A stretch of DNA of 64,000 bases from Thermophagus xiamenensis. GTDB taxonomy: Bacteria; Bacteroidota; Bacteroidia; Bacteroidales; Marinilabiliaceae. Within the stretch, counting starts at the first letter, position 1; each line of letters starts with the position of its first letter. This document shows, one piece after another, positions 374 through 50,538 of the stretch. The stretch is from positions 62,001-126,000 of the forward strand of contig NZ_FONA01000006.1 in NCBI RefSeq assembly GCF_900112795.1, read 5' to 3'. The notes beneath the pieces are model-generated. The model was not told the origin of the DNA. It did no database searches and saw only the letters and a list, made by a program, of their open reading frames with translations. The position numbers and the translations under genes are program-made.

Positions 374-484
374 CGTCATTAGTGTAAGTTTTAATTAAAT
401 CACTGTTCAAATGAAACTCACAGAACAAAAGCAATACACCCTCTTTTTTGTGTCGAGCCTTCATTTTTATGTTCGTTTCATCAT
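374..484 (-). repeat. Leader repeat copy A, upstream of the GH10 gene
   Basis: Read on the minus strand, this spacer starts just after the XusE-like stop with ATG ATG AAA CGA ACA TAA (micro-ORF 467-481: Met-Lys-Arg-Thr-stop). It then carries CGACACAAAA, a TGTGAGTTTCAT block, and TTTAATTAAAACTTACACTAATG just before the GH10 start. The same blocks in the same order occur at 6288-6392 and 36136-36347, and the second half at 3353-3408. The micro-ORF ATG lies 108 nt before the GH10 ATG at 373, or 102 nt before the alternative at 379. This is the most diverged of the full copies. Confidence 0.6.
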
Positions 485-1567: not shown

Positions 1568-3352
1568 TTACCATCCAGCATTTTGTTTTAGGTTGGTCCA
1601 TTTGAGCACTTCTTGATACGGGATTGGCCCGTGATACATATAATCTTTGTAAACTCTGGGTTCCACCTCTATAGTTGTATAAACCGGATCAACATTGGGC
1701 TTGTCAATTTGCATACCACGAGCCGTTTCATTCAATTTGTCAAGACTAACCTTCCAACGACGCAAATCCCAGAAACGGTGGTTTTCAAAACATAGTTCCA
1801 AACGACGCTCATTACGAATCAATGAACGCATTTTATCTTTGTCATTTTTGCACTCTTCCAGATAAGGATCATCATTATCTGTCCCTACTCCGGCCCTGTT
1901 ACGTATGGCTTTAATCACATCATATGCTGACCAGGGATATGTTCCGGTACCTGTAGGTCCCCAGGCTTCGTTGGCAGCCTCGGCATAAGCCAGGAAAATT
2001 TCCGTATAGCGAATACGTGCTGTATAATGTTTTTGCTCCGTATTGAACTCGGGGTTGGGATTACAGTCAGGACGCAATAGTTTTCTCAAATAGTAACCGG
2101 TCCGAGTAGACAAACCATTTTCCTTATTGATAACATCATTATTTGTTCCATAGGTTCCGGTAATAATAATATCGTCGTTAGGTCCCTGCGTGCTTTCATT
2201 GATAACGATATATCTATTGAGCCGAGGGTCGCGATTGGCATAAGGATCATTGGGGTCATAGTTGGCATCAGGATGCGAAATGGGATACCCATTTACCATA
2301 GGAAATGCATCCACAAGATTTTGCGTGGGGTTCACCCTACCATTACCATAGAGCGAGGGCGGGAAATTATCAGTTTCGAGGTCATTACTTTGGCTTATAT
2401 CACTTCTCCAAATAATTTCAGGGGGTGTAACTCCGGAGCCCAGAGATTCAATTTCATCGATATTTGCATACCAAGTACCCCCGTTAGGGTCCAACCCACT
2501 GACACCATTAATACGATCGAGGACAATGCCGGCATAGTTAGCTGCATCTTCCCACGTTACATTGGTGCCGGAACTATAGGCAGGACTTGCCGCTAGCAAT
2601 GCCACCTGAGCGCGAACCGCTTCCACAATTCGACCGGTTATACGTCCTCTCATATGGTTGCCATTCACGCGGTTATAATCACCGGCATTGGTAACTCCCA
2701 TCTCTTTATACTTTTCGGGAATTTCAGCATCGGAAATATCTCCATAATCCAGCGGCAACAATTCCAGAGCCTTCTCCACATCACTCATGATTTGGTCAAC
2801 GCACTCCTGAAAAGTGTTTCGCGGCACATTGAAATCAGATTCTGTGGTTTCAGGTTCTGTTAAAATGGGAACTCCCAACAATTGTCCGTCCTCAGTCCAT
2901 CCGCCATGAGCCTGCAGGAGAAAATACATATGAACAGCGCGTAAGGCATAGGCTTCACCTTTTAGACGATCATTGTACATGGTACGAATTACCTCATCTT
3001 TACTCCACATCACCTCATCGGCATTTTGCAGAAAAAGATTAATGTACTGAATGGCATTTCTAGATCCCTGCCATCGCGACATAGGATTATCATTAGCTGC
3101 CCAGGAGCCGGTAGCCATCTGCAAATAGTTGTTTTCGTTATCATTGGATACGGCATCATCGGTAGCCACATCGCTATTAGGAAAAGCGGAATAAGGCAAC
3201 AGGATATAAGCATTGGCTAAAATTCCCTGAGCATATGTTGGTTCCTGATACATGGCATCAATATTCCTAATATTTTCGTTGGCAGGAGAGAAAAAATCTT
3301 CACAGCCTGTTACCAGGAACAATAGCACTAATAGTTTAATAGTATTTCTCAT
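1568..3352 (-). CDS. SusD/RagB-family lipoprotein (XusD-like)
   Basis: This 594-residue glycan-binding lipoprotein has the signal MRNTIKLLVLLFLVTGCEDF with a lipobox Cys at residue 17. The SusD fold is supported by the N-terminal DEFxxP-like region, the TPR-like stretch RMYNDRLKGEAYALRAVHMYFLL, and the typical C-terminal phrases IRNERRLELCFENHRFWDLRRW and PIPYQEVLKW. Such proteins cap the paired SusC channel and hand it oligosaccharides. It follows susC2 by 67 nt, with the second half of the leader repeat in between, and precedes the XusE-like gene. In the xus scheme this is XusD. The substrate is probably xylo-oligosaccharide, judged from context. Confidence 0.9.
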   Translation of the reverse strand: MRNTIKLLVLLFLVTGCEDFFSPANENIRNIDAMYQEPTYAQGILANAYILLPYSAFPNSDVATDDAVSNDNENNYLQMATGSWAANDNPMSRWQGSRNAIQYINLFLQNADEVMWSKDEVIRTMYNDRLKGEAYALRAVHMYFLLQAHGGWTEDGQLLGVPILTEPETTESDFNVPRNTFQECVDQIMSDVEKALELLPLDYGDISDAEIPEKYKEMGVTNAGDYNRVNGNHMRGRITGRIVEAVRAQVALLAASPAYSSGTNVTWEDAANYAGIVLDRINGVSGLDPNGGTWYANIDEIESLGSGVTPPEIIWRSDISQSNDLETDNFPPSLYGNGRVNPTQNLVDAFPMVNGYPISHPDANYDPNDPYANRDPRLNRYIVINESTQGPNDDIIITGTYGTNNDVINKENGLSTRTGYYLRKLLRPDCNPNPEFNTEQKHYTARIRYTEIFLAYAEAANEAWGPTGTGTYPWSAYDVIKAIRNRAGVGTDNDDPYLEECKNDKDKMRSLIRNERRLELCFENHRFWDLRRWKVSLDKLNETARGMQIDKPNVDPVYTTIEVEPRVYKDYMYHGPIPYQEVLKWTNLKQNAGW

Positions 3353-3408
3353 CAGTGTAAAAGTTTCAAAGTTATTATCCTAAGGAATTCACATGAAAAA
3401 ACACAGAT
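3353..3408 (-). repeat. Leader repeat copy D (second half only), upstream of susD2
   Basis: On the minus strand this spacer reads TGTGTTTTTTCATGTGAATT, then about 28 nt, then AAACTTTTACACTG immediately before the susD2 ATG. It matches the second half of copy B (GTGTTTTTGGTCATGCGAGTT and AAAATTTTTACTG before the ATG). The micro-ORF half is missing because the susC2 coding region ends only 67 nt upstream. Confidence 0.5.
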
Positions 3409-3419
3409 TTCCGTTTGCA

Positions 3420-6287
3420 TCAGAATGCAGCCTTCAAACCAATATTGTAAAAACGGGTTTGTGGTGCATCGGTAATATTCATCTCCAAAATTTCTTTTTC
3501 TTTAGCTATTGTCAGCAAATTGGAACCACTGATGTATGCCGAAACTTCTTTAAAGAATGAGTTTTGCAGAATGTTTTTCGGCAAATCATAGGTTATTTGC
3601 ACCTTAGCCAAATTAAATCGGTCGGTTTTATATAGCCAAAAGTCGGAATTCCGGAAGTTATTGGTTCCGCTTGTGGTTGTCAGCCGGGGATAGGTGGCTG
3701 TTTCTTTGGTTTCTTCAGTCCATCGGTTACGGACCACTTCAGAATATTTCCGGTTGCCATATACCCAGAAATAGGAATTGTTTTTCATGGCGTAGGCGCC
3801 GAAGCCACCTGTTCCCATAGCAAAAAAGGTAAGATTTTTCCATCTAGCGGTAAGATTCACACCTAATGTAAAAGGAGCGCCATACCATCCTCCTTTCCCC
3901 AAGTAAACCACATCTTGCTCATTAATAATGTTGTCGTTGTTTTGATCCACATACTTGATATCACCCGGTTTCACAACACCACCGAAGACCTGTTCTGGAG
4001 AGTTATCTATCTCTTCTTGGCTTTGGAAAAAACCATCGCTTTCGAGGCCCCAGATACCATCAACAGGACGACCCTCACGTTTCTGATAATCATACTCATA
4101 GTTTTCATCACGCCGAGTGGCCTCGGTAGTATAATAGGTTCCTGCCAGGCCGAGGGTCCAGTGTACGTTACCCAGACGCTTATTAAAATTGACATCGAAA
4201 TCGAATCCCATGCGTTGATCGTCATTAAAATTGACATATGGGATGAAAGATGCATCAGGATAATAGGTAAAGAAATAGTTTGGGAAAATGGTGGAAGGCT
4301 CAATAATCAATCCCTCCATTTTATTAATAAAGAAAGAGGTATTTATGGAAAACAGATTATCCCACATGGAAGCACGCAAATTGGCAGATAATTCTTTTCT
4401 TTTAATGAAGGTCAAATCCTTGTTTTCTCCTCTAATCGAATTGGTAGATTGTTCTGAAGCACCATCATACCATCCCCACCATGCACCATCGGCCTGAGTA
4501 TAATTGGCTTCATACATATAATAATCGTCAATATCCAGATCGGTATTCAGGATACTTGCTGAAACGCTAAGAACCATATCGTCTATCACGGATGAACTAG
4601 CCATGAAACTCTCATTACTTAATCTCCAACCCAGCGTTATGGAAGGTGAAAAAGCATTTCGATGGCCGGGGGCTAATTTGGCCGAATGAACAATTGCGGC
4701 ACCGAAATCTGAATAATACTTGTTTTTGAAGTTGTATCCCAATTGGAGTCCCAGATTGGCATTACTGGTTCTGTGATAAACTTCCGATTCAGTCTGCTGA
4801 AAACCGTTTGCTATCAACATAGCAGACAGATTGTGGGCATTATTCAGGGAGGTATTGTATTCGAACCACCCGGAAAAGGCAAGTGTTTGTCGATTTGTGC
4901 TGCCACTTATATTTTGCTCGCCCGAACGCTCATCATTATTGTATTTGGTTAAGTCAGCAATCACATCGACCCCATTGTAGGAATACCATGAAGGTTCATA
5001 AACTGCATAGGAATTATTGTAAGAAGTGGTGTAAGAAGTGGCGTAATCAACAGCAAACTGGGTATGAAATGAAAGACCTTTCAAAAAATTATCCAAATTA
5101 AAGTCAATCCCCGTATCGAACTGGAACTGCCGACTGGTCCATTTACTGTACCCCCCAGCATAGAAATCGGCAAAAACATTGGTCATATCGACCTGTGTTC
5201 CGGCTAAAAAATACTTGCCGTCAACAATATTACTACTGTTATTCACAAGAGTCCATGCGTTAAGTGCATTTTGATCCAGGAAACTAATGGGGATTAAAGG
5301 CGAAATGCGATTAGGTCGCATGGTGGCTGCATAGGTCCAATAGGTATCGGAGGTATCATCATCCGGATCACTATCAGTGACATTAGCACTTCGTGCATTA
5401 TAGAAAGTAGCATTAGCGTTTACAAAGGCACTGATATAATCATTCAACTTTAAATCAATATTTCCTCTGACATTTAAGCGATCGGTATAATTATTCTTGG
5501 CTTCCCCAATTTTAAACAGATCTCCTTGCCTATAATAGCCAATATTGGTATAATATCGTGCTCGTTCATTTCCACCCGAGATTTCGGTAACAACATCAGA
5601 CCGATTATAGGCTTTTTTCAGATAATCTGAAGAATAAAAATCAACATTGGGATACCTGTATGGATTTTGTCCGGAAGCAAAACGATAAATCTCCTCATCG
5701 CTATAAGCAGGTTGCAATCCATCATTTTCCAACGCTTCATTATAAAGCGTCATATACTCGGCCGAGCCAAGATATTTGGGATAACTTTTTGAAACATGAA
5801 AACCAGAATTTGCACGGACATTAATTTTTAGGGGGTGAGCTTGCCCTCTTTTGGTAGTAATAAAAATAACTCCTTTGGCAGCCCTACTACCATAAAGCAC
5901 AACAGCCGAAGCCCCTTTCAAAAAAGTGATATGATCTATTTCTGCGGGAATAACATTATTGGCATCTCGCGGCACACCGTCAACCAGAACCAAATAATCA
6001 TCCATCCCCCATAAAGAGTTACCCGTCCAACCACCGATATATCCCTGCATATTATCCAAGCTATAAGTATGATAGTTTTTCTTAATCAGATTTTGCACGT
6101 CGACCACGGCCACACTACCCCAAAGGTCCGATTTTGTAACCTTGCGAAAGGCAATTTGAACCCGTGATGTATCATTTACCATATAAGTTGAATCAGTTTC
6201 ATTTTCGGTCGTTGATTGTGCCTTAACTCCCGGGGTAAGGTCAACCAACATCGCCAACAAAATGATTCTTATAATTATTTGTTTCAT
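3420..6287 (-). CDS. SusC-family TonB-dependent outer-membrane transporter (XusC-like)
   Basis: This protein has 955 residues and a signal peptide ending near VKAQS. Unlike its neighbour at 8400, it lacks the carboxypeptidase-like beta-sandwich at the N-terminus and goes almost directly into the plug domain (VAVVDVQNLIKKNYHTYSLD, VLVDGVPRDANNVIPAEIDH, FLKGASAVVLYGSRAAKGVI). A 22-strand-type barrel follows, ending in an aromatic C-terminal residue (GLKAAF). A shortened SusC of this kind is usual for the second transporter of xus loci. It pairs with the SusD-like protein at 1568 to import xylo-oligosaccharides. The gene starts right after leader repeat copy B. Confidence 0.9.
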   Translation of the reverse strand: MKQIIIRIILLAMLVDLTPGVKAQSTTENETDSTYMVNDTSRVQIAFRKVTKSDLWGSVAVVDVQNLIKKNYHTYSLDNMQGYIGGWTGNSLWGMDDYLVLVDGVPRDANNVIPAEIDHITFLKGASAVVLYGSRAAKGVIFITTKRGQAHPLKINVRANSGFHVSKSYPKYLGSAEYMTLYNEALENDGLQPAYSDEEIYRFASGQNPYRYPNVDFYSSDYLKKAYNRSDVVTEISGGNERARYYTNIGYYRQGDLFKIGEAKNNYTDRLNVRGNIDLKLNDYISAFVNANATFYNARSANVTDSDPDDDTSDTYWTYAATMRPNRISPLIPISFLDQNALNAWTLVNNSSNIVDGKYFLAGTQVDMTNVFADFYAGGYSKWTSRQFQFDTGIDFNLDNFLKGLSFHTQFAVDYATSYTTSYNNSYAVYEPSWYSYNGVDVIADLTKYNNDERSGEQNISGSTNRQTLAFSGWFEYNTSLNNAHNLSAMLIANGFQQTESEVYHRTSNANLGLQLGYNFKNKYYSDFGAAIVHSAKLAPGHRNAFSPSITLGWRLSNESFMASSSVIDDMVLSVSASILNTDLDIDDYYMYEANYTQADGAWWGWYDGASEQSTNSIRGENKDLTFIKRKELSANLRASMWDNLFSINTSFFINKMEGLIIEPSTIFPNYFFTYYPDASFIPYVNFNDDQRMGFDFDVNFNKRLGNVHWTLGLAGTYYTTEATRRDENYEYDYQKREGRPVDGIWGLESDGFFQSQEEIDNSPEQVFGGVVKPGDIKYVDQNNDNIINEQDVVYLGKGGWYGAPFTLGVNLTARWKNLTFFAMGTGGFGAYAMKNNSYFWVYGNRKYSEVVRNRWTEETKETATYPRLTTTSGTNNFRNSDFWLYKTDRFNLAKVQITYDLPKNILQNSFFKEVSAYISGSNLLTIAKEKEILEMNITDAPQTRFYNIGLKAAF

Positions 6288-6425
6288 CAGTAAAAATTTT
6301 AATTTAGTTATTGGGCTGATGTAACTCGCATGACCAAAAACACATACATATTTTTTTGTTGTGACAGGTTTTCTTGGTTATGCGCGTTTCATTGTTATAT
6401 ATATACTATTTGAATTAAAACACTG
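6288..6425 (-). repeat. Leader repeat copy B, upstream of susC2
   Basis: On the minus strand the spacer between susD1 and susC2 carries ATG AAA CGC GCA TAA (micro-ORF 6378-6392: Met-Lys-Arg-Ala-stop). Then come CTGTCACAACAAAA, GGTCATGCGAGTTACATCAG, CCAATAACTAAATT and TTTTTACTG, followed by the susC2 ATG. The micro-ORF ATG lies exactly 105 nt before the susC2 ATG, as in the fecR copy. The AT-rich stretch ahead of the micro-ORF (AGTGTTTTAATTCAAATAG, 6401-6425) resembles the stretch ahead of the real start codons, as if part of another unit preceded it. Confidence 0.65.
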
Positions 6426-6443
6426 TTAAAATAACCAAGGAAA

Positions 6444-8396
6444 TTACCAACCCGGATTCTGACCAAATTCTGGATACATGGAAGTATCGTTAATCTTGAG
6501 GGGGAACCAGTAGTGTTTTGTTCCAAACTGCCGAGTTAAAATAACTTCTTCCCTAAAATTGGAAACTCTGGCATCTTTGGGGTCATTTTCCATGTAAAAA
6601 TCTTCATCCTCAACCCGATCAAATTCCTGGGATGTTTTGATGTTGTAGGGATATTCAGTCAGCAAAAGCCAACGCCGTAAGTCATTGAACCTAAAACCTT
6701 CAAAAGCCAGTTCAACAGCACGTTCACGCCGCACTTCATCCAGGAACAGCTCACGACTACCAGTGTATTTGGAATGAACATGACCTGCACCAACACGATC
6801 GCGCAGCGTGTTAATGGCTTCGACGGCAGTCTTGGAAAAATTGGATGATTTATGGTTAGCTCCGCCTATTGCTCCACATGCCTCGGCATACATCAAATAG
6901 ATGTCTGCCAATCTCATATAAGGAAGATAGACATGAAGATTTGCCGACCAGTTATAGGCACCGTCATATTTATTCGCGGTATGAGGCACAAGTTTTTGTG
7001 TAAAGTAGCCGGTACGGCTTGCATTTTCAACTTTTCTCATGGCACCTCCCGTATAAAGACTACAATACCTCAAATATTCCATATCAGAAGGCATTGAAGC
7101 ATTAACATATTTGAAACCATCGAAGACAATGTCGTGGTAAAATCTGGGATCACGATCTTTGAAAGGATAAGTAGGATCGAATCCTGAATCGGGGTCATCC
7201 AAAGGCAGGCCATTTGCCATACCATACAAATTGACATAATTGGCTGTTGGTTGATGAATGATGTTGTCATGTTCAACAAGCCCCTGCACTTTGGGCCCAA
7301 AAGTTTTGGTGGTATTCCAGTTACTGCTGTTACCATCGTATGAAGGACCACGAAAAATGGCTTCTGTAGAACCAGGCATCAGCCAGTTTTGTCCGGTAGT
7401 ATAAAAAATATCACTGTATGAAGTGGTGGCATCATCGGCTGGTACATGGTTATAAATATCTTTGTAGTTGAATTCGACCAAAGCATACTGAGTTTGACCA
7501 CTTTCCACCAGACTGAGTAACTCACCAAAAGCCTCAGCAGCTTTATCGCAGTAGGTTTCATCATAGTTATAGGTATTTCCACCACCGGTTTGAGGCCCAT
7601 TTTTCATGAGAGGACTTCCGGCCCACAGATAATTCTTACCTAAATAACCTAAAGCCATAATCTTATTGATTCGCAATTGATTTTTTCCCAAAGTGTTTCT
7701 TCCTACTTTGGTATTATCCCAGTCGATAGGCAACAGTTGGGCGGCTTTTTCGAAATCGGCTCCGGCTTTATCGGCACATTCCTGATAGCTTAATCGAGGA
7801 AGTGTCAGTTTTTCGCCGGATGGCAACACCTCATCCACATAAGGAAGCCCTCCCAGATATTGCATTAATTGGAAATGCCACCAGGCTCTAAAGAAATATA
7901 ATTGTCCGGCTATCATATCTTTTTCTTCCTGGGTCGCCTCGGTTAACTTGTCAAGATTTGCGAGTCCAATGTTAGCCTTTCGGATGCAATACCAGGCATG
8001 AGGCCACATGGCATGATCAAACGCGTCATCAGAAGTAGGATCGGCATCATCTTTATCGAGCCAGCTTCCGTTTTGAGCCATTCTACCGGCCTGCCAGGCC
8101 CAGAAATTTCCGATATCAATCTGATGGACCATGTGCCAGTCACCTTCAGGGTTCATAATTTCGTCATCACCCCAGTTCCAGGAAGTTGTCCAATAGGATT
8201 TCTGTTTGTCAGGGATGCAATTGTAAATTTCTTCGATAAAGCCTTGAAAATTAGTAAAATTTTTAAACGCCTCATCTTCCGAAATGATAGATTCGGCTTC
8301 TTTATCCAGATAATCTTCACAAGAACTCAACCCTAAAATCAGAAGGGTTAATATACTTCCCCATAAAAATTTATTATATAGTTTCATCGTATTCAT
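6444..8396 (-). CDS. SusD/RagB-family lipoprotein (XusB-like)
   Basis: This 650-residue SusD homologue has the lipoprotein signal LWGSILTLLILGLSSCEDYL. Family landmarks are SIISEDEAFKNFTNFQGFIE near the N-terminus, the helical repeat AGQLYFFRAWWHFQLMQYLG, and the C-terminal phrases RRERAVELAFEGFRFNDLRR and WFPLKINDTSMYPEFGQNPG. At 650 residues it is longer than most SusD proteins, as XusB-type proteins are. It starts only 3 nt after the susC1 stop, so the two are translated from one message. It probably caps the susC1 channel and binds long xylan chains. The start could also be the ATG three codons inside. Confidence 0.9.
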   Translation of the reverse strand: MNTMKLYNKFLWGSILTLLILGLSSCEDYLDKEAESIISEDEAFKNFTNFQGFIEEIYNCIPDKQKSYWTTSWNWGDDEIMNPEGDWHMVHQIDIGNFWAWQAGRMAQNGSWLDKDDADPTSDDAFDHAMWPHAWYCIRKANIGLANLDKLTEATQEEKDMIAGQLYFFRAWWHFQLMQYLGGLPYVDEVLPSGEKLTLPRLSYQECADKAGADFEKAAQLLPIDWDNTKVGRNTLGKNQLRINKIMALGYLGKNYLWAGSPLMKNGPQTGGGNTYNYDETYCDKAAEAFGELLSLVESGQTQYALVEFNYKDIYNHVPADDATTSYSDIFYTTGQNWLMPGSTEAIFRGPSYDGNSSNWNTTKTFGPKVQGLVEHDNIIHQPTANYVNLYGMANGLPLDDPDSGFDPTYPFKDRDPRFYHDIVFDGFKYVNASMPSDMEYLRYCSLYTGGAMRKVENASRTGYFTQKLVPHTANKYDGAYNWSANLHVYLPYMRLADIYLMYAEACGAIGGANHKSSNFSKTAVEAINTLRDRVGAGHVHSKYTGSRELFLDEVRRERAVELAFEGFRFNDLRRWLLLTEYPYNIKTSQEFDRVEDEDFYMENDPKDARVSNFREEVILTRQFGTKHYWFPLKINDTSMYPEFGQNPGW

Positions 8397-35103: not shown

Positions 35104-36135
35104 TTATTTATGACGCAGTATTACTTTTTTCCGAGAAAAATTACCCGACTTATCTTTTTGATTATCAATTATCTCATACTGAATAGGAGATGATAATTTT
35201 AAAAGTCGTAACACATCTTCCAGTTTTTCATCTTTAAAAGTAGCCCTGAAAGAGTAGTCGAGTAAAACGCTATCATCAATTACCACATCCACATTAAACT
35301 ATCGCGAGAGTTCCCTCGCCATCTGATGCATATTTTCGCCCCGCAACATCAAAATCCCTTCTTTCCAGGCGGAATAATGCTGGGGATTAACATTTCTGCG
35401 GGTAAGTTTTTTTTCAAAACTATTGTAAACCAACATTTCTCCAGGTGTCATTAAAAACGCTTGTTGACTTCCATAAGGAATAAATTCAACTTTTCCTTCC
35501 TCCAGCACAACTTCCATTACTTCTTCGTCGGGCCACATATCAATATTAAAACGTGTTCCCAAAACTCTAACAGCTCCTTGTTTACCCTTAACAACAAACG
35601 GATGTATTGAATCTTTTCTAACATTGAAAAAACCTTCACCTTCCAGCGTTACCTTTCGTTGTTTAAAAGGGATAGTATAACTTAAAGTAGAACCACTATT
35701 CAACCACGCAGTAGTGCCATCAGGCAATTGGGTTTTTATTCGGGCCCCCAGCGGAACAACAACCTCAACTACGGAGGGTTGTAAATGGTCACTATACCCA
35801 ATTAAAAGCCAGCCAATCATTAAACCTATTATGGGTAACAGCAATATTGCTGCAATCTTACTATACCAAAACAAAACCTTTTTAATTCCACCTTTTGGTA
35901 ATAACTTTTTTTCATGCTCCAAATTGATTATGTAATGTATTTTATGCAGGATAGGAGAAAGATCTTTCTTTATATTCGCTTTGGAAAGGGCATCCCAGTC
36001 CTTTCTCATGCGTTTTTTTAAACTTATTTCATTAGCCTCACCGCAAAACAACTTTACAAAATTTTTTTCGGTCGGTAAATCTCCCCCACATCCGTTAAGA
36101 TATTCATCAAATAATTGTTCCTGCTCCTGATTCAT
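35104..36135 (-). pseudogene. FecR-family anti-sigma factor with an in-frame amber stop
   Basis: The frame has a cytoplasmic anti-sigma region (residues 1-85), a membrane helix (88-113), a periplasmic FecR domain (approx. 125-220: VVPLGARIKTQLPDGTTAWL) and then MARELSR followed by TAG (35299-35301). The same frame continues after the stop for 64 residues (FNVDVVIDDSVLLDY and so on), which form the usual C-terminal DUF4974/STN-like domain. Most homologues have Trp at this place (SRWF/Y), so one G-to-A change of TGG would explain it. Without readthrough the product is 278 residues long and lacks the domain thought to meet the STN domain of SusC. A sequencing error is possible. Confidence 0.85.
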
Positions 36136-36378
36136 CAGTATAAAATATTTATCTAATTCATTGGTCTGATGGAACTCACATACCCTAAAGTTTATACATG
36201 ATCTTGGTGTGACAAACTTTTCTGGTCATGATCGTTTCATTATTATAAAATTAATTTAAGTCATTTGTTAGATTGAACTCGCCTGAACGTATTTAATTTT
36301 TATAAGTTCTGGTTGTAATTACCATAAGTTAATCATACTCTTTTCATCCGCATAAAATTTACTTATTTAATTGAACTA
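36136..36378 (-). repeat. Leader repeat copy C, two tandem units upstream of fecR
   Basis: On the minus strand, counting towards fecR, an AT-rich start (AAATAAGTAAATTTTATGCGG) leads to micro-ORF 36333-36347 (ATG AAA AGA GTA TGA: Met-Lys-Arg-Val-stop). After 107 nt comes micro-ORF 36226-36240 (ATG AAA CGA TCA TGA: Met-Lys-Arg-Ser-stop), and after another 105 nt the fecR ATG. Both units contain GAGTTC(A/C)ATC, then AATGA(C/A)TTA, then TTTTATA just before the next ATG. The nearer unit also shares TTTGTCACAC with copy B. The 123-residue gene at 49652 has a similar pre-start stretch (CATAAGTAAATTTTATACGA). Confidence 0.65.
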
Positions 36379-37198
36379 TTGGTGCTTAAAATTAGTCAAT
36401 AGTGGTTAGTCGTTAGTGATTAGTCGTTAGTCACTAGTCCATTAACACTAATGACTGATGACTATTGACTATTGACTTCTTCTGCCTTCTGCCTGAGCAC
36501 TTCTGCCTTGGGCTATTTTATACATGCTCTTTTGTGGCTAAAATCGCTATGCTCGTTTTATTAGACAAAATGACATTTTTGCAAATTAACATCTATTAAT
36601 TCAGAATTATTAAAGTTTATCCTCATTTTTCTACTGTAATATTATTGACATGAACAATTGATTTTTTAACCGTGAATTCATTAATAGCACATAAATTCTT
36701 TCACCAATCGATTTTGCCATGCTAATAGTAATACCCTTCCAATAAAAAAATCTCCCGAAAAATTTTACATTTTTTAATCAGGAATCTCATTTTTTGTTAT
36801 TTTATGTTGCTTTTAAAGAATAACAAAATTTAAACTTTGGCACCGTAGCCGGTACTTTTTCACATTAATTTCAATAAATCTTGAAAACAATCGGAATTTA
36901 AAATTCCCACAAGCATGAAACCTGTCTAATTATCCCATATAATGAAATGACCACGACAAGAAGGCTTACTGCAATAAAAGCAATAAATAACTAATGGATC
37001 AGGGCAAAAGAATAATTCATTAATTGAATGATTGCAGGTTTTCAGCCACTTAAGAAAAGTCGGAAAATTGGTTCGACCAAACCATTTATTATCGGAAAAT
37101 AATATTCAATTGAAATGAATTAAAAAATTATGATTCTCAATAAATTTTCAAAACCTGCCTTTCCTGCTCAAAAAACTACCAAAAACTATTTAAACACA
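36379..37198. other. Long intergenic region between fecR leader and sigma gene
   Basis: This spacer of about 820 nt holds a degenerate repeat cluster at 36392-36514 and is otherwise AT-rich (about 36560-37198), with no open frame, tRNA or clear promoter. A short GC-rich patch near 36840-36856 is followed by T-rich sequence, but its pairing is weak and I do not call it a terminator. Confidence 0.5.
36392..36514. repeat. Degenerate TTAGTC / TTCTGCC simple-repeat cluster
   Basis: The first part repeats TTAGTC and GTTAGT about six times (36392-36440). The middle is the inverse, with GACTATTGACTATTGAC at about 36459-36476. AGTCAATAGT (36394-36403) pairs with ACTATTGACT (36461-36470), so a hairpin of about 80 nt is possible. 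The last part repeats TTCTGCC three times (36479-36507). The 12-mer TAGTGGTTAGTC also occurs at 55721. Such decayed repeats mark non-coding DNA in Bacteroidota genomes; no function is evident. Confidence 0.55.
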
Positions 37199-49651: not shown

Positions 49652-50023
49652 CTAAAAACTCAACTCCTTTATCAAATCAGATATTTTATCTATCACTTCC
49701 CCGGATAATTTTTCCATCTGACGCCTTAAATCCAAATGTTCGACAACATATTGATGATTAGGCGTAACCGGAAAATCTTTATTATAATACTGCATTTCTC
49801 TCTCTTGAGTCTGAATTCGTTTCTGCATTCTTTCCAATTGACTCTCATATTCTTCAAGAATCATCTCTTCAACTTCATTTAATCCCTCCCGGGAAAGGCC
49901 TCTTTTCAATTCATCATTCCGTTCCCGGACAATTTTTAAATCTTGCAAAAACCAATCAATGTGGTTTTTCCACATTTTATATTCAAATTCAAGGTCCATT
50001 AAGGTAATTTCTCCTTCCTTCAT
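49652..50023 (-). CDS. Coiled-coil protein of unknown function
   Basis: This 123-residue soluble protein is almost all helix, with charged heptads (LQDLKIVRERNDELKRGLSR, EEYESQLERMQKRIQTQERE). I do not recognise the family. It has no signal peptide. The stretch before its start (CATAAGTAAATTTTATACGA) resembles the pre-start part of the tandem leader upstream of fecR. It lies 74 nt upstream of the permease gene on the same strand. Confidence 0.68.
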   Translation of the reverse strand: MKEGEITLMDLEFEYKMWKNHIDWFLQDLKIVRERNDELKRGLSREGLNEVEEMILEEYESQLERMQKRIQTQEREMQYYNKDFPVTPNHQYVVEHLDLRRQMEKLSGEVIDKISDLIKELSF

Positions 50024-50538
50024 TCGTATAAAATTTACTTATGTTATTAACCGAATGACACCCGGGATTTTAGTTTTCAGGTCCCGGCGATTAGTTCACA
50101 GACTTCAGTGATAAAGGTTAATTATTACTCTGACAACCTTGTTGTATATAGCTATCAAAAAGCCTAACGGTCTGTCAGTCTAATTCTTTTTGCCAACATC
50201 ACTTTTTATGCCTTGTTAAGATAATATTTTTTTTTGAATTGCAAACATGCTCAAAACCACAAAATCATAACTTACTTATCGCCAATTATATTCCCGGGCA
50301 ACATCGCAAAATATATTCAACTTACATCCAGCCATCAATCATCTTTTTATCAGATTTAATATTGCTTGAATAGGAAACCTAATAACACTTAATTTAGATT
50401 GGTGATACTGAACAAAAAAAGGGAACCAACTTTTGATTCCCTTAAGCTACTTGCTTTTGCGGTTTTCGTCAAGACGTTAAATATTAACCCCTCTGGTTTA
50501 AAAGTAATGGCACAAAAGCATTTAACAAATACTTTTAA
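50024..50538. other. Intergenic region holding the VOR operon terminator
   Basis: This 515-nt spacer lies between the VOR gamma gene and the coiled-coil gene, both on the minus strand. It holds the hairpin at 50414-50443 and the leader-like stretch ahead of 50023. The rest is AT-rich with no clear frame. I see no RNA gene. Confidence 0.55.
50414..50443 (-). terminator. Rho-independent-type terminator after the VOR operon
   Basis: On the minus strand AAGGGAA, an 11-nt loop and TTCCCTT are followed directly by a T-run (50414-50420 overlap). It lies about 95 nt after the gamma-subunit stop codon. Stem and T-run orientation fit the end of the VOR operon. Confidence 0.65.

Follow-up and report, generated by a model that had tools for sequence, protein, structure and literature searches.

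The spacer in front of the SusC-like gene in the Thermophagus xiamenensis window (the whole 64-kb stretch of DNA that was analysed) is probably a copy of a small mobile element that is non-coding and non-autonomous, with a putative guide and a putative HUH transposase acting in trans. We put the probability of this explanation as a whole at about 70%. That the unit is a mobile element specific for the pentamer ATGAA is highly likely, and insertion was shown to be precise at ATGAA, with ATGAA left on both sides. Small non-autonomous mobile elements are known; the ATGAA/start-codon site, the tandem growth and the putative shared guide look new.

Units in the window

A profile built from the genome copies detected seven units or pieces of units in the window, and the control, 20 locally shuffled windows, gave a best score of 8.5 bits.

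376-482, minus strand: complete but diverged unit preceding the gene that starts at 379 (41.5 bits)
3349-3401, minus strand: right-half remnant preceding the SusD-like gene 1568-3352 (13.0 bits; window E-value 0.0096)
6283-6392, minus strand: complete single unit whose end coincides with the ATG that opens the SusC-like gene at 3420-6287 (72.7 bits)
36131-36240, minus strand: complete unit whose end coincides with the start codon of fecR; the gene has a FecR domain (78.9 bits)
36236-36348, minus strand: degenerate second unit, in tandem and upstream of the fecR unit (33.8 bits)
36343-36560, minus strand: long-type unit of 218 bp, with left half 36515-36560 and right tail 36343-36382 (14.6 and 12.1 bits)
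50019-50064, minus strand: right-half remnant ending on the start of the open reading frame 49652-50023 (24.0 bits)

The sequence-only reading had described four related leaders, preceding susC2, a GH10 gene, fecR and, as a half copy, susD2. All four are real, on the minus strand and in the places given for them (72.7, 41.5, 78.9 and 13.0 bits against the shuffled maximum of 8.5), so that the likeness is far better than that of shuffled AT-rich sequence, and even the weak susD2 half copy is confirmed. Some details changed. The susC2 copy had been bounded at 6288-6392, but the true unit reaches 6283, because it includes ATGAA, the gene's own start. At fecR a single element (36136-36347) had been proposed; an element is present there, but the spacer consists of two tandem units, preceded by both ends of a longer unit, which are separated by a repeat-rich unrelated insert. 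The copy at the supposed GH10 locus stands, while the label is only putative: the window ends inside the gene starting at 379 (2-379), and Pfam gave no match to the 126 residues that can be read. The SusC-like gene carries a TonB plug domain (Pfam). Three pieces (36236-36348, 36343-36560 and 50019-50064) are additional to the four described before. Rfam at gathering thresholds gave no match in the window.

Copy number and structure of the units

The T. xiamenensis genome was used as a 3.9-Mb draft of 58 contigs without annotation, and units were counted from profile matches in sampled stretches together with pattern counts. A 166-base query around 6280-6445 gave more than 40 matches in its own genome, mostly at 70-86% identity, and most of them share one end base (query position 163-166). 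When up to two mismatches are allowed, the 16-base start motif ATGAAACGAGCATGNC is matched 422 times in the genome, and the same pattern reversed, as a control, 5 times. The genome thus holds hundreds of further copies, for which the sequence-only reading had suggested a search.

The unit reads ATGAA, ACGAGCATG(A/G)C, an inner hairpin, CACAA..ACATGTATAAA..CATGCGAGTTCCATNNG(A/G)CC, AAT with an A/T-rich tail, and TATACN'N' followed by the next ATGAA. It is about 103 bp long and is present as single copies or head-to-tail arrays that repeat every 101-103 bp. In long units, which measure about 200-420 bp and among which a 299-bp period was also seen, the left half and the final 30-44 bases are retained around an unrelated, repeat-rich middle. 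The insert of such units contains AGGCAGAAGTGCACAGGCAGAAGGCAGAAG (for instance, L023:1367-1565), and runs of ACTAATGACTAACCACTA are present in many of them. Among paired ends we detected no autonomous copy, that is, no gene between two unit ends; in three loose pairings the ends lie more than 1 kb apart, and each of the three involves an end that is poorly matched or a left end that is truncated.

Other repeats were observed beside units. Many short tandem palindromes (CGCATGCTTCGATGCGA..CAATCACATGCTCCGATGCGA) lie on the minus strand of L054 downstream of the left half 3044-3098, and in L023:3436-3704 a tandem 20/60-bp repeat of the TTTTCATTTTCACCGAGAA type is found within an open frame right after an ATGAA array.

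Empty sites and the ATGAA target

For ten arrays of Anaerophaga thermohalophila DSM 12881, the two flanks were joined and used as queries against the genome of the sister strain Valhall, which is about 10% diverged. Three clean empty sites were found, at which Valhall has a single ATGAA and DSM 12881 has ATGAA-unit(s)-ATGAA.

DSM 12881 L187:4940-5132 (two units); empty site in Valhall L265
DSM 12881 L128:7363-7464; empty site in Valhall L266
DSM 12881 L144:4913-5013; empty site in Valhall L277

The two-unit array of L187 is missing from Valhall as one block, and the empty sites display no target duplication besides the fixed pentamer. A further Valhall empty site, corresponding to L186:6147-6249, has the pentamer with one base different, and the site corresponding to L166 has an older, degenerate right end. 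The units at L186:1165 and L155 are at the same place in Valhall too, while the Valhall flanks of L167 and L191 are separated by other extra sequence. The earlier proposal of a mobile or duplicated leader is borne out in this respect by the hundreds of copies, the tandem units and the empty sites.

Since each insertion rebuilds the site, units can stack head to tail. Where ATGAA is the start of a gene, its ATG is retained after insertion and the gene is unbroken; where an upstream gene ends in the TGA of the target, the stop is retained. The latter is possible, but not common, as only 3 of 131 left ends coincide with the stop codon of a long frame upstream.

Start codons and adjoining genes

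The relation to start codons was analysed in 864 kb of the T. xiamenensis genome, sampled without bias (stretches picked by position, together with the window), in which 42 array ends could be placed. The ends coincide exactly with the ATG that starts a called gene in 26 cases, and lie elsewhere in intergenic DNA in 16 and in coding bodies in none; the start-codon counts are approximate, because the gene calls are simple longest-ORF calls. ATGAA sites outside units in the same 864 kb number 190 at starts, 661 in other non-coding DNA and 2,603 in gene bodies. Starts thus received 26/42 array ends against 22% of the available ATGAA sites (odds ratio for start versus other non-coding 5.7, p about 1e-7), and coding bodies, with 75% of ATGAA sites, have no array end. 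Samples centred on the elements gave 25/51 start-codon ends in T. xiamenensis and 39/76 in relatives.

The adjoining genes are diverse and include CarB-, MurC-, RlmB- and Dxr-like genes (judged by first residues), lipoproteins and oxidoreductases. One gene (MKKIIIT.. / MKLFFLF.. / MKKLVFLF..) bears a start-codon unit in T. xiamenensis and in the two Anaerophaga strains. Start codons are therefore truly preferred but not always used, and the units show no special preference for glycan genes. Placement before start codons, as claimed from the sequence, holds for 26/42 array ends with the 5.7-fold excess, but not for the other 16.

Most insertions of mobile DNA damage genes. ATGAA can hold a start (ATG) and a stop (TGA), and both are rebuilt on either side of the unit, so copies can pile up at gene boundaries with reading frames intact. 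Extrapolated from the sampled stretches, well over 100 genes, some of them housekeeping, would be read via a transposon-derived translation start. A caution follows for repeated 'leaders' preceding SusC/SusD genes, which need not be regulatory.

Hairpins and covariation

Hairpins near both ends of the unit, the inner left one and the right one, co-vary. In a single-strand fold CATCAG pairs with the terminal CTGATG, and the right-end hairpin CATNNG...CNNATG takes in the ATG of the target. Changes at the variable bases of CATNNG are matched by changes in CNNATGAA, and six pair types were seen (CA/TG, TC/GA, CC/GG, TA/TA, CT/AG and AA/TT). Watson-Crick pairing of NN with N'N' was detected in 35/41, 52/67 and 19/22 distinct units of three genome sets, with shuffled means of 11.9, 23.2 and 10.4, and 0 of 10,000 shuffles reached the observed values. 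In the alignment A1 of 26 sequences, 97.4% of cells of the right hairpin are paired, compared to 90.3% when shuffled and 17-54% when slid; the covariation score of the inner left hairpin was reached by 0/500 shuffles. The outer stem ATGAAAC..GCATG / CATGC..GTTCCAT is almost invariant and therefore gives little covariation evidence. The left ATGAAAC also has a complement in the middle GTTCCAT, whose CAT can pair with the left or the right ATG.

CATNNG and CNNATG remain complementary in 80% of the units at start codons, in 86% of those at other places and in 89% of the tandem units inside arrays. The pairing is equally kept in units that precede no gene, and control of a downstream gene thus does not explain it; the pairing is best read as belonging to mobility. 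Single-strand folding energies (DNA parameters) were not below those of shuffles in 5/6 units. A hammerhead ribozyme, considered for CTGATGAAAC at the junction, was dropped, since CTG varies to CGG, CGA and CAG in step with the opposite strand.

Possible mechanism and alternative explanations

A single-strand HUH-type transposase supplied in trans would cut after each ATGAA and move the unit by transposition of the IS200/IS605 or REP kind. The shared, internal GTTCCATNNG may act as a double guide, pairing with the left and then with the right cleavage site, as in IS200/IS605. Insertions within genes would be selected away and those at start codons tolerated, which would let copies accumulate at start codons, where the A/T-rich tail may serve as a working translation-initiation region. 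If the guide pairing is true, the unit would be a natural transposon aimed at start codons through DNA-DNA pairing. We give HUH/single-stranded DNA chemistry about an even chance of being what moves the units.

No transposase gene was found inside or beside any unit. Y1 genes were not linked to units in 16 carrier genomes, nor was there linkage at about 50 Y1-transposase loci of carriers and relatives, where only L243, with an IS200-type TnpA of A. thermohalophila at 1405-1857, has a full unit nearby, at the chance level expected from copy density. Copies of IS200-type elements, compared among themselves to read their ends, include none that terminates in ATGAA. IS200/IS605 elements favour the lagging-strand template. 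No clear strand bias of units was seen in the 42 array ends, of which 25 lie on the G-rich strand according to GC skew (9/16 among the ends away from start codons). With no linked Y1 gene and no clear strand bias, another recombinase may be the mover. A site-specific recombinase (tyrosine, serine or IS110-like) that moved the units as cassettes, circular or double-stranded, and used ATGAA for the crossover in an integron-like manner, would yield the identical core on both sides, the uniform orientation of arrays and the tandem growth at a regenerated site. On inspection, however, the junction has no visible GTTRRRY/RYYYAAC attC boxes, the units are scattered over hundreds of sites instead of a single array, and the guide-like covariation with ATG is left unexplained, which makes such cassettes rather unlikely. 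The resident RAYT P0001 (G000:C53:226377), with the units as its REP-type repeats, is a very improbable source. No other Y1 gene was found in the T. xiamenensis genome, and the NHLH, WQ and YIHMNP motifs of P0001 resemble Bacteroidetes subclass 2.6, but P0001 (L041:1246-1788, C53:226377) sits within its own repeat family, GTGGATTTGTAATCCAC / GGATTGCAAATCCC, a palindrome distinct from the ATGAA units. P0001 also has no homologue at E<=1e-5 in the genomes G176, G160 and G051, despite start-motif counts above background there (motif matches only). It was rejected as the mover owing to the other repeat in its flanks.

As a cis-regulatory mRNA leader, the unit would pair CAU with AUGAAAC or with the CNNAUG of the gene, opening or closing the start by exclusive folds, and would have spread via regulation. 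The four- to six-fold start-codon excess, the co-varying right hairpin that includes the start ATG and the gene that bears a start-codon unit in all three strains are in line with it. We consider it unlikely, given that covariation is as strong away from starts and inside arrays as at starts, that 16/42 array ends are not at starts and the adjoining genes share nothing, and that neither the folding energies nor Rfam lend it support. Control of translation or mRNA stability of surface-glycan genes, as had been supposed, finds no support, given the diversity of the adjoining genes, the hairpin equally kept where no gene follows and the lack of an Rfam match; a dedicated glycan-gene leader was rejected, since copies precede unrelated genes or none. 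A combination, also unlikely, is a candidate start-codon-homing DNA family, with target choice encoded as base pairing to ATG plus a transcribed two-state leader. CAU would then have two alternative partners, AUGAAAC upstream and the start codon, and in Marinilabiliaceae the family would be at once a DNA-guided transposon and a translational switch acting throughout the genome. Two of the genes first described are SusC/SusD-like, as an operator or promoter common to co-regulated glycan genes would have it, but this and chance AT-rich likeness have a negligible probability in view of scores far over shuffles, hundreds of copies, tandem repetition, empty sites and unrelated genes. The sequence-only reading had likewise set ordinary operator sharing aside.

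Comparison with known elements

The unit is similar to IS200/IS605 elements (IS608, ISDra2) in the fixed short target kept beside the element and in the subterminal hairpins; its internal bases complementary to the presumed cleavage sites may correspond to their guides. In IS608 the target is TTAC, the guides AAAG and GAAT pair with the cleavage sites and the site is retained (PMC5934647). The differences are ATGAA on both sides, one CAT apparently serving both ends, the tandem arrays, the strong start-codon excess, no clear strand bias and no transposase found.

Like REP/REPIN sequences, the units are short palindromic intergenic repeats with hundreds of copies per genome. A REPIN consists of two inverted palindromes. 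The units differ from REP/REPIN in having no GT(A/G)G foot (26-sequence alignment), in inserting precisely at ATGAA and in their length of about 103 bp with an A/T-rich tail. For Bacteroidetes RAYT subclass 2.6, 'atypical secondary structures' have been reported in the flanks (PMC6006769). These could connect to the ATGAA family, but the RAYT loci in this analysis, whose flanks have other repeats or no units, do not bear this out. A large restriction-modification-like methylase at L263:808-3252 (DSM 12881) and L262 (Valhall) contains, in frame, a Y1/RAYT-like domain (NHVHVIV region) flanked by QASSL/SSLSEN peptide repeats that look like in-frame translated REP repeats.

BrickBuilt of Porphyromonas gingivalis, a MITE with 19 copies and inverted-repeat ends, located 49-591 nt from the nearest genes (PMC4596501), is likewise a small, non-coding, intergenic mobile repeat with tandem repetition, while our units number hundreds and often abut start codons. 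They differ from a classical (DDE) MITE in that the right end is no inverted copy of the left and the flanking pentamer is fixed, not variable. Integron cassettes and attC arrays share the head-to-tail arrangement, the regenerated insertion site and the folded site; the units lack attC boxes at the junction (alignment A1, inspection), an array locus and ORF cargo, and identity with integron attC was rejected for the absent junction boxes. A text search of 5.39 million papers for the sequence strings of the unit gave no match.

Occurrence in other genomes

An exact pattern scan detected the unit in two strains of A. thermohalophila, in Marinilabilia salmonicolor, Breznakibacter, Saccharicrinis and Carboxylicivirga, and in several metagenome-assembled genomes. 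Units in other genomes are about 85-93 bp long, with different loops and identical ends. The search across the order Bacteroidales used a short motif with mismatches, and on re-search with the full unit a match at E<=0.001 was obtained in only 6/19 genomes. Plasmid and phage collections gave no unit match, and viral contigs gave one pattern match with weak profile support. Anaerophaga spacers (for instance, L171:6021-6232) contain a second dispersed family with GTATAAAAAGCAT..TTTTGTCAAAATCCAGGCGTTTTAAA motifs, which is polymorphic between both strains.
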